From Candidatus Desantisbacteria bacterium CG1_02_38_46 (GTDB lineage Bacteria > Desantisbacteria > UBA1551 > UBA1559), in the NCBI GenBank assembly GCA_001871015.1, contig MNUO01000111.1, forward strand, positions 1 through 11,335: a DNA stretch of 11,335 bases, in the 5' to 3' direction. A program made the translations under genes and the position numbers. The notes below the pieces were generated by a model. It did not search any database, had not been told where the DNA came from, and was given only the letters and a program-made list of their open reading frames with translations. Of the stretch, positions 2,353-7,298 are shown piece after piece. How positions within the stretch are numbered: the first letter of the stretch is position 1; each line of letters opens with the position of its first letter.

Positions 2353-2400
2353 GGGGACAGCCAGAGCCAGACCCCATTTTCTGTGTCAGTCCCTATTTTC
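2353..2400. repeat. Repeat-like imperfect palindrome spanning the topA end and xerC upstream region
   Basis: The 42-nt gap between topA and xerC, plus the last topA codons, consists of GGGGACAG (2353-2360), the tandem-like CCAGAGCCAGA, then two near copies of CCC[C/T]ATTTTCTG (2372-2383 and 2391-2402, 11 of 12 matching). The outer arms GGGAC and GTCCC can pair around the rest. The element supplies the topA stop codon (TGA at 2388-2386) and its last residues E-N-R-D. It also occupies the position where a xerC ribosome-binding site would be expected. That it is a dispersed genomic repeat is inferred from its structure and from the shared octamer in xerC. Confidence 0.55.
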
Positions 2401-4452
2401 TGGTTTCTGCCAGGACATAAATTTGCACTCTGGATAATTGCTGCAGCCGTAAAAAGTTCTTCCTTTCTTTGTCCTTCGTATGATAACTTCACTGCCGCAC
2501 TGCGGACATTTAATACCCAGTGAAATTGATTTTGTGTATTTACACTTCGGGAAACCAGAGCAAGCAAAGAATTTACCAAATCGTCCCTCTCTTTCCACCA
2601 TCGGGCTTCCACACTTCGGGCACATTTCACCTGATAGTTTCTCCTCCCTCTTAACTTTCTTAATCTTCATCTGTGCCTCCTGCAATGTTTCTGAGAATGG
2701 TTGATAGAAATCCCCGACTACCTTTATCCATGAAAGTTTACCTTCTTCAACCTCGTCAAGTTCTTCTTCCATATCTGCTGTGAACTTAACATCTATGATA
2801 AGCGGGAAATTATTCACAAGTAATTCATTTACAATCTTACCCAATTCTGTGGGATAGAATTTCCCTTTTTCCTTTGCGACATATCTCCTGCCTTGAATTG
2901 TTTGAATAGTTGGAGCATAAGTACTTGGTCTTCCTATTCCTTTTTCCTCCATTATCCTCACCAGACTCGCTTCAGTATACCTGGGAGGTGGCATGGTGAA
3001 ATTTTGTTTTGGTATCAATTCCAACAATTTCAAAACTTCACCCTTTTTGACTGCAGGCAGTTGTTGCTCTTCCTTTGTTTCTTCTTCCTCAGCCTCTGCA
3101 GAGTAAACTCTGCCACTACTATTGGTATCAGAGCAATCTCTGCCACTACCAACCCCGACGTTACATCGGGGCACTACACTATCGTAAGCAGCCATAAATC
3201 CTTTATCTTTCACCACTGTACCTGTTGCTCTGAATAAATATTGCCTGGCCTCTATTTCAATTGTCCTAACCTCTAATGTTGCAGGTTTCATCTGACTTGC
3301 AAGAAATCTCTCCCAGATTAATTTATAAAGCCTGTATTGTTCTGGATTTAAATATTGTTTGATTTTTTCTGGCTCTCTGTAGATGCTGGTTGGACGAATT
3401 GCTTCGTGTGCCTCCTGTGCACTTTTCTTGCTTTTATATTGAGGGGGTCCGGGTGGCAGAAAATTCTCTCCATAGTTCTGGCGAATATATTTCCTTGCCA
3501 TATTCTGCGCTTCCTGTGCAACTCTGACTGAATCTGTGCGCATATAGGTAATTAATCCAACCGGACCTTCTTCCCCGACTGAAATTCCTTCATATAATGC
3601 CTGGGCGATATTCATTGTCCTGGTTGTGGTAAATCGGAAACGCCTGGATGCCTCCTGCTGCATTGTGCTTGTAATAAATGGAGGAGATGGAAATTTTTTC
3701 TTATCTTCTTTCTTCAGATTAACAACAGTATAAGTTGCTCCCTGCAGTTCGCCAAGAATTTTCTTTGATTCGGTTTCATTCTCAATTTTTATTTTTTTAC
3801 CGGCAGGACTTTTTTCCAACTTTGCCAGAAATGGTGGTGGATTTATCCCTTCTAATCTCGCTGTTATTGTCCAGTATTCTTCTGGTTTGAATTTTTCAAT
3901 TTCCTCTTCTCGCTCACATATTATCCGTACTGCTACGGATTGCACTCTTCCAGCGCTTAAACCCCGCTTTACTTTTCTCCATAGCAAAGGACTCAATTTG
4001 TATCCAACAAGCCTGTCAAGAATTCTTCGCGCCTGCTGTGCTTCAATTTTATTGATGTCCAATTGACCGGGATTGGCAAATGCTGCACTGACCACTTCCT
4101 TTGTAATTTCATTAAAGGTCACACGCTTAACTCTAGAAGAGTCAACTTTCTTAGAGTTTATCTCAGTAGCCAGATGAAAAGCAATTGCTTCTCCTTCGCG
4201 GTCAGGGTCAGTTGCAAGATATATATACTTTGCTGTCTTTGCTGCCTGCACAATTTCCTTGACTGTTTTCTTCCTCTGTTTTATAACAACAAATTTCGGT
4301 TTGAACCCGTTGTCAACATCTATTCCAAGTTCTGTTCTGGGAAGGTCCTTTATGTGTCCCATACTCGCCTTGATTAAATAGTCAGGACCAAGAAATTTGT
4401 TGATTGTTTTTACTTTTGCTGGTGATTCAACGATAACCAACGACTTTGGCAT
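2386..4452 (-). CDS. topA: DNA topoisomerase I (type IA)
   Basis: A 688-residue bacterial topoisomerase I that relaxes negatively supercoiled DNA through a 5'-phosphotyrosine link. The TOPRIM domain begins SLVIVESPAKVKTI (E9) and has the metal-binding DPDREGE (D82, D84, E86). The catalytic tyrosine is Y303 in GLITYMRTDSVRV, with R305 beside it. EKGIGRPSTYA (about 503-513) is the standard domain motif. Two C-terminal four-cysteine zinc domains follow: C611/C614/C631/C637 and C649/C652/C670/C676. ATG 4452-4450 has AGGAG 5 nt upstream. Residues about 425-452 are encoded by three tandem GTAG-headed palindromes inserted in frame, in the acidic variable loop before LLELIPKQNFTMPPPRYTE; the reading frame and catalytic residues are intact. 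The final residues come from another repeat-like sequence. It follows dprA and precedes xerC, as in many bacteria. Confidence 0.98.
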   Translation of the reverse strand: MPKSLVIVESPAKVKTINKFLGPDYLIKASMGHIKDLPRTELGIDVDNGFKPKFVVIKQRKKTVKEIVQAAKTAKYIYLATDPDREGEAIAFHLATEINSKKVDSSRVKRVTFNEITKEVVSAAFANPGQLDINKIEAQQARRILDRLVGYKLSPLLWRKVKRGLSAGRVQSVAVRIICEREEEIEKFKPEEYWTITARLEGINPPPFLAKLEKSPAGKKIKIENETESKKILGELQGATYTVVNLKKEDKKKFPSPPFITSTMQQEASRRFRFTTTRTMNIAQALYEGISVGEEGPVGLITYMRTDSVRVAQEAQNMARKYIRQNYGENFLPPGPPQYKSKKSAQEAHEAIRPTSIYREPEKIKQYLNPEQYRLYKLIWERFLASQMKPATLEVRTIEIEARQYLFRATGTVVKDKGFMAAYDSVVPRCNVGVGSGRDCSDTNSSGRVYSAEAEEEETKEEQQLPAVKKGEVLKLLELIPKQNFTMPPPRYTEASLVRIMEEKGIGRPSTYAPTIQTIQGRRYVAKEKGKFYPTELGKIVNELLVNNFPLIIDVKFTADMEEELDEVEEGKLSWIKVVGDFYQPFSETLQEAQMKIKKVKREEKLSGEMCPKCGSPMVEREGRFGKFFACSGFPKCKYTKSISLGIKCPQCGSEVIIRRTKKGRTFYGCSNYPECKFMSWQKPENRD
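3098..3119 (-). repeat. GTAG-headed palindrome (GCAGAG type) inside topA, copy a
   Basis: Minus strand: head GTAGTG, stem GCAGAG, loop TTTA, stem CTCTGC. This is identical to copy R3 of the array at 4471-4570. It is read in frame as S-G-R-V-Y-S-A (residues 446-452), the phase that avoids the TAG stop in the head. It is followed directly by the acidic run EAEEEE of the normal TopA loop. Confidence 0.9.
3124..3150 (-). repeat. GTAG-headed palindrome (CAGAG variant) inside topA, copy b
   Basis: Minus strand: GGTAGTGG, stem CAGAG, loop ATTG, stem CTCTG, A, then TACC. The outer GGTA/TACC can extend the hairpin. It is read as G-S-G-R-D-C-S-D-T. It is a diverged relative of the GCAGAG copies, in the same reading phase as copy a and separated from it by 4 nt. 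Confidence 0.85.
3153..3177 (-). repeat. GTAG-headed palindrome (CCCCGA type) inside topA, copy c
   Basis: Minus strand: head GTAGTG followed by CCCCGATGT-A-ACGTCGGGG, in which CCCCGA pairs with TCGGGG and a G-T wobble can lengthen the stem. The head is shared with the GCAGAG elements but the stem is unrelated. It is read as V-V-P-R-C-N-V-G, a different phase of the head (GTA GTG) from copies a and b, and is also free of stops. Confidence 0.75.
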
Positions 4453-4470: not shown

Positions 4471-4570
4471 GCAGAGCGAGCTCTGCCACTACCAGCAGAG
4501 TAAACTCTGCCACTACATTCTGCAGGATAAACTCTGCCACTACATTCTGCAGGATAAACCCTGCCACTAC
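4471..4570 (-). repeat. Tandem array of four GTAG-headed hairpins between dprA and topA
   Basis: On the minus strand four 22-nt units run R1 (4570-4549), R2 (4543-4522), R3 (4516-4495), R4 (4492-4471). Each has head GTAGTG then a hairpin: R1 GCAGGG-TTTA-TCCTGC, R2 GCAGAG-TTTA-TCCTGC, R3 GCAGAG-TTTA-CTCTGC, R4 GCAGAGC-TC-GCTCTGC. R1-R2 and R2-R3 are joined by AGAAT, R3-R4 by TG. Arms vary together in part (R4 C/G against R3 T/A at the stem top; R1 G-T wobble), which favours a conserved hairpin over mere sequence conservation. The array fills almost the whole dprA-topA gap, ending just before the topA AGGAG site, and R1 supplies the dprA TAG stop. GTAG at the hairpin foot matches the REP hallmark recognised by RAYT transposases (established knowledge). 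No RAYT gene is in the window. Confidence 0.93.
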
Positions 4571-5706
4571 TTTCGAACAAATAATTTGCCCGGCAACTGT
4601 CTGATTAATCCTCTAATTTCCATCTTGATCAATATTGGACCAACCTTGTGGGATTCCATCCCGGAAATATCAGTTAATTCGTCAATGTGCACAGGTTCTC
4701 TGCCCATCAATTTATAAACTTTTGCCTCTTCTTCACTCAAGGGCATATTTTTTTCTTCGGGACCGCTACTTGCAGAGTGAACTCTGCCACTACAGTCCGA
4801 TTGAAACATCGAACCGCTACATTCTGTAGTTAGTTCTTCTAATATATCCTCCACTCCCTGCACTAATTTTGCTCCGTCTTTAATCAACTGGTGGCATCCC
4901 CTCGTTGTTGGAAGGTTAACATTTCCAGGAACTGCGAAGACCTCCCGCCCCTGTTCAAGAGCAAAACTTGCTGTAATCAGCGCCCCACTCTTTTCCGCGG
5001 CCTCCACTACAACTATTCCCAGACTTAAACCAGAGATAACCCGGTTCCTGCGCGGGAAGTTTTCCCGATCTGGAAGAGTGCCCAGTGGAAATTCACTTAT
5101 CACCATTCCATCCCTTTCAATATCAAGCATCAATCCCTTATTCTCCGGAGGATAAACTACATTAAGTCCACTTCCAAGCACTGCAATTGTCCTGCCCTTT
5201 GCCTTAAGTACTCCTCTGTGTGCAGCCGTATCAACACCTCTTGCCATTCCACTAACAACTGTCCATCCACGACTTGCAAGTTCCAGAGCTAATTTTTCAG
5301 CATTTAACCTGCCCTGAATACTGGGGCGTCTCGAACCCACAATTCCAATTGAATTTTTGTCAGAAACAAGAAATTTGCCTTTTGCATACAGGACAATGGG
5401 CGGGTCATAAATTTGCTTAAGCAAAAAAGGGTAATCCTCATCATCCAGAGTGAACACCTGTATATTAGAGTTCTTTGCTCTTTCCAGTTCTCGCCTGGCG
5501 GCTTTTCCATCAGCAAGACTTAGAATTTTTCTGGCAATTTCGTCCCCGATACCTTCAACTTTCTTAAGTTCGCCTGCACTTTTTCCAAAAATATTATCTG
5601 GTGAGCCAAAAAACTGCAGTAATCCTTTCAGGCGGCTGGACCCTATGCCAGCCATATTTAAAGAAATCCACGCCATGCACTGCTCGGAGTATTTTTCCTC
5701 ACTCAT
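4567..5706 (-). CDS. dprA: DNA-processing protein DprA/Smf
   Basis: A 379-residue DprA. The family binds single-stranded DNA and loads RecA during natural transformation, though it is also widespread in species not known to be transformable. An N-terminal helical/HhH region (KKVEGIGDEIARKI, about 48-62) is followed by the extended Rossmann fold. Its motifs are GIVGSRRPS (121-129), SGMARGVDTAAH (152-163), AVLGSGLNVVYPPEN (175-189), ISEFPLGT and FPRRNRVISGLS (217-228), and SGALITASFALEQGREVFAVPGN (240-262). A C-terminal winged-helix domain spans about 322-379. The linker between them (about residues 294-315) is encoded by GTAG-headed palindromes in frame. The stop codon TAG is the TAG of array copy R1. 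The start has GGAG about 9 nt upstream in a 35-nt gap. The dprA-topA-xerC order is conserved in many phyla. Confidence 0.97.
   Translation of the reverse strand: MSEEKYSEQCMAWISLNMAGIGSSRLKGLLQFFGSPDNIFGKSAGELKKVEGIGDEIARKILSLADGKAARRELERAKNSNIQVFTLDDEDYPFLLKQIYDPPIVLYAKGKFLVSDKNSIGIVGSRRPSIQGRLNAEKLALELASRGWTVVSGMARGVDTAAHRGVLKAKGRTIAVLGSGLNVVYPPENKGLMLDIERDGMVISEFPLGTLPDRENFPRRNRVISGLSLGIVVVEAAEKSGALITASFALEQGREVFAVPGNVNLPTTRGCHQLIKDGAKLVQGVEDILEELTTECSGSMFQSDCSGRVHSASSGPEEKNMPLSEEEAKVYKLMGREPVHIDELTDISGMESHKVGPILIKMEIRGLIRQLPGKLFVRK
4772..4793 (-). repeat. GTAG-headed palindrome (GCAGAG type) inside dprA
   Basis: Minus strand: head GTAGTG, stem GCAGAG, loop TTCA, stem CTCTGC (or a 7-bp stem around TC). 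It is translated C-S-G-R-V-H-S-A (about residues 305-312), the same phase as the copies in topA. It lies in the linker between the Rossmann fold and the winged-helix domain. An orphan head GTAGCGGT (4769-4762) follows it without an evident stem. Confidence 0.9.
4796..4820 (-). repeat. GTAGCGG-headed palindrome (TTCGAT type) inside dprA
   Basis: Minus strand: GTAGCGG then TTCGAT-GTTTCA-ATCGGA (five pairs plus one G-T wobble). It is read as C-S-G-S-M-F-Q-S-D. It is preceded by ACAGAAT, resembling the GCAGAAT linker of the array at 4471-4570, which suggests the insertion was a tandem pair taken from such an array. Confidence 0.7.
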
Positions 5707-7161: not shown

Positions 7162-7298
7162 GTCATCAGACCTACTTGGTCATCAGACCTACTTGGTCGT
7201 TAGACCTACTTGGTCGTTAGACCTACTTGGTCGTTAGACCTACTTGGTCGTTAGACCTACTTGGTCATCAGACCTACTTGGTCGTTAGACCTACTTGG
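7162..7298. repeat. 17-bp tandem array, eight copies, two spacer variants
   Basis: The core GACCTACTTGG begins at 7169, 7186, 7203, 7220, 7237, 7254, 7271 and 7288, an exact 17-nt period. Cores are separated by TCATCA or TCGTTA; including the one before the first core the order is A, A, B, B, B, B, A, B. GGTC and GACC flank each spacer, so every unit can form a 4-bp hairpin with a tetraloop. On the minus strand each unit reads GTAGGTC-TAAC-GACC or its TGAT variant, that is, a hairpin preceded by GTAG, as in the elements at 4471-4570. The last core runs into GGCGCC. Confidence 0.95.

Follow-up and report, generated by a model that had tools for sequence, protein, structure and literature searches.

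Palindromic elements of Rickettsia (RPEs), described by Ogata, Claverie and colleagues, reportedly lie in frame within genes for conserved proteins, where they are translated and apparently tolerated. RPE-1 is longer than the elements treated here, RPEs have no GTAG head, and we know of no dedicated transposase for them. The GTAG superfamily of REPs was surveyed by Di Nocera, De Gregorio and Rocco (2013; PMC3733652), who noted an intergenic preference, intragenic members and TAG stop codons furnished by the heads, described REP-tagged genes for DNA replication and repair (with Opitutus terrae the richest), likened the intragenic GTAG REPs to Rickettsia RPEs, and assigned RPE-4 and RPE-6 to the CGTC type. 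REP/RAYT systems (Nunvar et al., 2010; PMC2817692) combine GTAG-headed REPs with a REP-associated tyrosine transposase (RAYT) in the same genome, as does the genome examined here, a 1.73-Mb draft in 133 contigs that is 87.8% complete. Our search of the literature on repeats in Desantisbacteria found nothing.

The window analyzed here is a stretch of 11,335 nt from Candidatus Desantisbacteria bacterium CG1_02_38_46, and its minus strand encodes TopA, a type I DNA topoisomerase of 688 aa (topA, 2386..4452; TIGR01051, E = 1.5e-239; Pfam Topoisom_bac, Toprim and zinc ribbons). On this same strand, topA contains three GTAG-headed palindromes, at 3098-3119, 3128-3149 and 3153-3177, through which the frame of 688 codons runs unbroken. 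Copy 1 (3098..3119; GTAGTGGCAGAGTTTACTCTGC) is letter-identical to the commonest REP variant of the genome and encodes S-S-G-R-V-Y-S-A (residues 445-452); copy 2 (3128..3149; GTAGTGGCAGAGATTGCTCTGA) has lost one stem pair and encodes G-S-G-R-D-C-S-D; and copy 3 (3153..3177; GTAGTGCCCCGATGTAACGTCGGGG), whose stem differs from those of the other two, encodes V-V-P-R-C-N-V-G-V (residues 426-434), such that the protein reads ...YDS-VVPRCNVGV-GSGRDCSD-TNS-SGRVYSA-EAEEEE... across the elements. A 96-nt strand holding all three copies folds at -18.6 kcal/mol, compared with -8.9 +/- 2.3 kcal/mol for shuffled versions (z = -4.2; 0 of 200 as good). The original prediction, made from the letters of this DNA, was of three GTAG palindromes translated in frame within topoisomerase I, two giving S-G-R-x-x-S and the third using another stop-free phase: positions, fold and a genome-wide family agree with the first part, and the same phases were read in the topA ORF, with S-G-R-V-Y-S and S-G-R-D-C-S in copies 1 and 2 and the V-V-P-R-C-N-V-G phase in copy 3. 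Because the remaining phase puts the TAG of the head in frame, this pattern is partly forced.

The palindromes of topA belong to a GTAG-type REP family that is spread through the genome. The pattern GTAGYGGCAGR..YCTGC has 129 matches in the 1.73 Mb, on both strands and many contigs (its reversed control has 0), and 16 matches in the nearest relative (genome G001); a narrower pattern, GTAGTGGCAGAGNNNNCTCTGC, has 12 copies in this relative and is absent from 39 genomes that are more distant. Within 0.97 Mb of the window's genome, a perfect 6-bp stem follows 180 of 642 GTAG[TC]G sites (28%) at a single fixed spacing; the same test gives 0-6 at shifted spacings and 0-3 with other head words, and 17 stem sequences each occur with the matching partner arm at the fixed spacing. 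Such a combination of a fixed head with compensating stem changes is a hallmark of GTAG REPs, and the tested features of the superfamily are all present: an unpaired GTAG head, a high and dispersed copy number, a mostly intergenic location, stem sub-families and a RAYT in the genome. Chance hairpins were rejected as a source of these elements, given that almost none are obtained with other head words, at altered spacings or with the pattern reversed.

The family resembles the published GTAG REPs (PMC3733652) in its unpaired GTAG at one end, its short stem and loop, its compensating stem variants and its grouped copies and also in being mostly intergenic with some members inside ORFs for known proteins, DNA repair genes included, and with head-derived TAG stops. 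It differs from them in its host lineage, Desantisbacteria being new, and in its head-to-tail tandems, which are common here but rare in most of the families described there. The likeness to Rickettsia RPEs that was originally proposed holds in part: these elements, too, are in-frame palindromes in genes for conserved proteins, with translation predicted in the present case, and they work like RPEs, but their heads are GTAG rather than CGTC, and this head word sets them apart as REPs of a superfamily other than the CGTC type to which RPE-4 and RPE-6 belong.

Compared with other TopA proteins, the segment encoded by the palindromes is supported by alignment as an insertion. The REP-encoded residues are missing, with flanks aligned, from two sets of TopA homologues, one of 20 proteins encoded in other genomes and the other of 22; the blocks on either side are separated by 4 residues in Staphylococcus aureus TopA (6ozw), against 37 here, and by 9 in Escherichia coli TopA, against 39 here. 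Between GFMAVY and LPAVKKGE there are 41 residues in the window's protein and 28 in that of the nearest relative (13 fewer), and since the two proteins are just ~67% identical, the exact empty site is not readable. The claims that the insert lies in an acidic variable loop, keeps the frame and spares the catalytic and zinc-binding residues are all borne out; in the homologue alignments, the Toprim domain, the active-site Tyr and the zinc cysteines are intact. In an AlphaFold model of the protein (mean pLDDT 86.1, pTM 0.81; alignment of 23 sequences), the sole stretch with pLDDT below 50 is formed by residues 426-461, that is, the insert and its acidic tail, between the strands at 405-416 and 473-485.

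TopA proteins do carry a variable acidic loop at this site, which leaves room for the view that the loop is normal, conserved TopA sequence in which codon choice happens to have produced palindromes. We assign this view a negligible probability: at the DNA level the palindromes match a repeat family found throughout the genome, one of them being letter-identical to elements elsewhere in it, the segment is lacking in relatives, and the inserted peptide is common to no TopA homologue. None of the homologues aligned shares the loop sequence while lacking the DNA repeats, and ordinary protein conservation is rejected by these alignments.

The gene adjoining topA, dprA (4567..5706, minus strand; 379 aa), contains a pair of in-frame REPs in the linker that joins its Rossmann domain (78-283) to its winged-helix domain (317-374). 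Both lie on the minus strand: one, at 4772..4793, encodes C-S-G-R-V-H-S-A (residues 305-312), and the other, at 4795..4820 (GTAGCGGTTCGATGTTTCAATCGGAC), has another stem and encodes C-S-G-S-M-F-Q-S-D (residues 296-304). Beside them, at 4756-4769, an extra GTAGCGGTCCCGAAG word, also in frame, is possibly what remains of a third copy whose second arm is missing. At the end of dprA, the GTAG head of a further minus-strand REP (4549..4570) provides the TAG stop codon of the gene (4567-4569), and beyond this element the dprA-topA gap is occupied by three more REPs on the same strand: two pattern matches at 4522..4543 and 4495..4516, and GTAGTGGCAGAGCTCGCTCTGC at 4471..4492, immediately upstream of the topA start codon. 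Elsewhere in the window (7162-7298), about eight copies of a 17-bp unit (GTCGTTAGACCTACTTG / GTCATCAGACCTACTTG), unrelated to the REPs, lie near a nifU-like gene.

The gene context of the family was determined across 0.97 Mb (56% of the genome), with genes called by a simple coding model. Of the 206 core REPs placed, 121 are intergenic, 17 lie over gene edges, 12 have heads that form stop codons, and 56 are inside ORFs, the last group occupying 32 ORFs of good coding score; about 1 in 30 of the ORFs called in the part read are affected. REPs occur at 0.064 per kb of coding and 1.46 per kb of noncoding DNA, and this 23-fold lower density in coding DNA suggests that most intragenic insertions are probably purged. 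With at least 32 ORFs affected in 56% of the genome, an event specific to topA is rejected; nor is a special targeting of DNA genes supported, the targets including gltX-, trpE-, thiL-, tsaB-, hypF- and nuo-type genes. When counted by gene, the S-G-R phase (phase 1) outnumbers the V-V phase (phase 0) by 19 to 7 (p = 0.03), and same-strand orientation outnumbers opposite by 26 to 13 (p = 0.05), both weak biases. The original prediction had regarded a GTAG head in an essential DNA enzyme as a novelty: such heads are indeed present in topA, but topA is not special, and GTAG heads within coding sequences and within replication and repair genes had already been published (PMC3733652), although the main text of that paper names neither topA nor dprA. 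Intragenic GTAG REPs are therefore known already, and what is new is the phylum and the large scale.

Several of the other REP-bearing proteins can be compared with their counterparts in the part of the nearest relative's genome that was read, where homologues of the DprA-, NuoN/M-, ThiL-, TsaB-, radical-SAM-, HypF- and DUF2344-type proteins have gaps at the REPs and aligned flanks. Pfam domains lie either side of, or across, the REPs. There are two exceptions: an element in L161 (1211-1233), perhaps a coincidental one, at which a weak match to the relative shows no gap, and a GltX-like protein whose loop is equally long in the relative. A few of the 56 internal REPs may accordingly be cases of chance or replacement, or lie in miscalled genes.

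Units containing REPs have also expanded in tandem and in frame, with periods of 51 bp in a TsaB-like protein (L184:7310-8257), 57 bp in a NuoN/M-like protein (L211:6152-7555) and 30 bp in an unknown protein (L157:6219-8411), all of them multiples of three. A translated tandem of another, non-REP type, of ~22 residues (CDTPPTFNSRETRFLSEAKGSY, repeated), is found in frame in a large beta-propeller-peptidase-like protein (L201:7856-10858). In the nearest relative, an 8-bp unit, TGTCAACG, forms arrays, 12 of them in ~0.5 Mb (at L227, L235, L239, L246, L251, L255, L265, L267, e.g., L267:16553-16584, and L268); the 0.97 Mb covered of the window's genome contains no such array. These arrays translate to CQRVNVST, and peptides of this kind occupy the DprA, radical-SAM and HypF linkers at which REPs stand in the window's genome: it seems that each lineage has lengthened the same permissive linkers with a repeat of its own.

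A draft assembly as fragmented as this one, in which repeats can misassemble, invites the suspicion that the REP-bearing ORFs, topA among them, are assembly artefacts or pseudogenes in decay. We hold this to be very unlikely: topA is matched only once in the genome and its catalytic and zinc residues are intact, 32 ORFs stay in frame through their REPs, the ORFs align on either side of the elements wherever the relative has a homologue, and adjacent REPs differ in their stems, unlike collapsed repeats. The REP-bearing TopA protein is probably made, retention of the inserted peptide being the default expectation.

It is a separate matter whether the inserted peptide has been co-opted, for instance for regulation or for contact with DNA by the TopA and DprA linkers. 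Two adjacent genes of DNA metabolism carry REPs, the S-G-R phase is the more frequent among genes, and Di Nocera et al. (2013; PMC3733652) offered the speculation that the activity of replication and repair genes is changed by the REPs they carry. But REP-bearing genes here are of all kinds, the peptide is predicted to be disordered in the AlphaFold model, and a tolerance of hydrophilic residues explains the phase bias equally well, and so we give recruitment little credence; the inserted peptide would instead be close to neutral.

As for mobilization, the genome encodes a full-length RAYT-like protein (C109 (L201):6886-7869) that scores marginally below the cut-off of its family model (NF047646, E = 1.7e-22; 79.9 bits against 80) and above that of Pfam Y1_Tnp, and that bears a DnaA-C-like tail. 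Two more RAYT-like genes are broken, one by a stop and the other by a contig end, the latter with REPs some 300 bp away. Within 3.3-kb loci of two of these genes, the intact one included, no GTAG hairpin of the family (that is, no REPtron) was found in this 88% complete genome, and hence the RAYT is linked to the REPs by its presence in the genome alone. Unlike in the REP/RAYT systems described previously (PMC2817692), no member of the present REP family flanks the RAYT in the stretch read, and the protein has the DnaA-C-like tail. A truncated IS200-type Y1 transposase lies at a contig end (L168:1-470), with two GTAG REPs ~300 bp off. From this gene content, we infer that a RAYT moves the REPs, or did so in the past, as single-stranded hairpins.

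The account that we consider highly probable is that GTAG REPs were inserted and then tolerated in a disordered loop of TopA, and that frame-keeping copies persist in linkers and loops. As the family spread through the genome, a tandem group of three REPs would have entered a surface loop between the strand that ends at residue 416 and the one that starts at residue 473; with the frame kept, this would have added ~28 residues of disordered, Ser/Gly-rich linker and left the enzyme undisturbed. Selection would remove most intragenic copies, with those in frame in linkers or loops surviving. A bolder proposal, to which we accord a low probability, is that REPs act as linker modules fit for translation: in most frames, their most frequent sequences read without stops as hydrophilic peptides, many linkers of core enzymes would have been extended repeatedly, the elements or their transposase would be adapted to survive in genes, and some linkers would have been put to use.

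Insertion and tolerance of REPs would account for the odd S-G-R-V-Y-S, S-S-K-L-D-H-Y and R-V-N-S-A-T peptides in annotations of the Desantisbacteria group, and offers a natural experiment on the sites at which proteins tolerate insertions. With it, a candidate phylum is added to the small number of lineages whose conserved proteins are lengthened by palindromic repeats, in this case at large scale.
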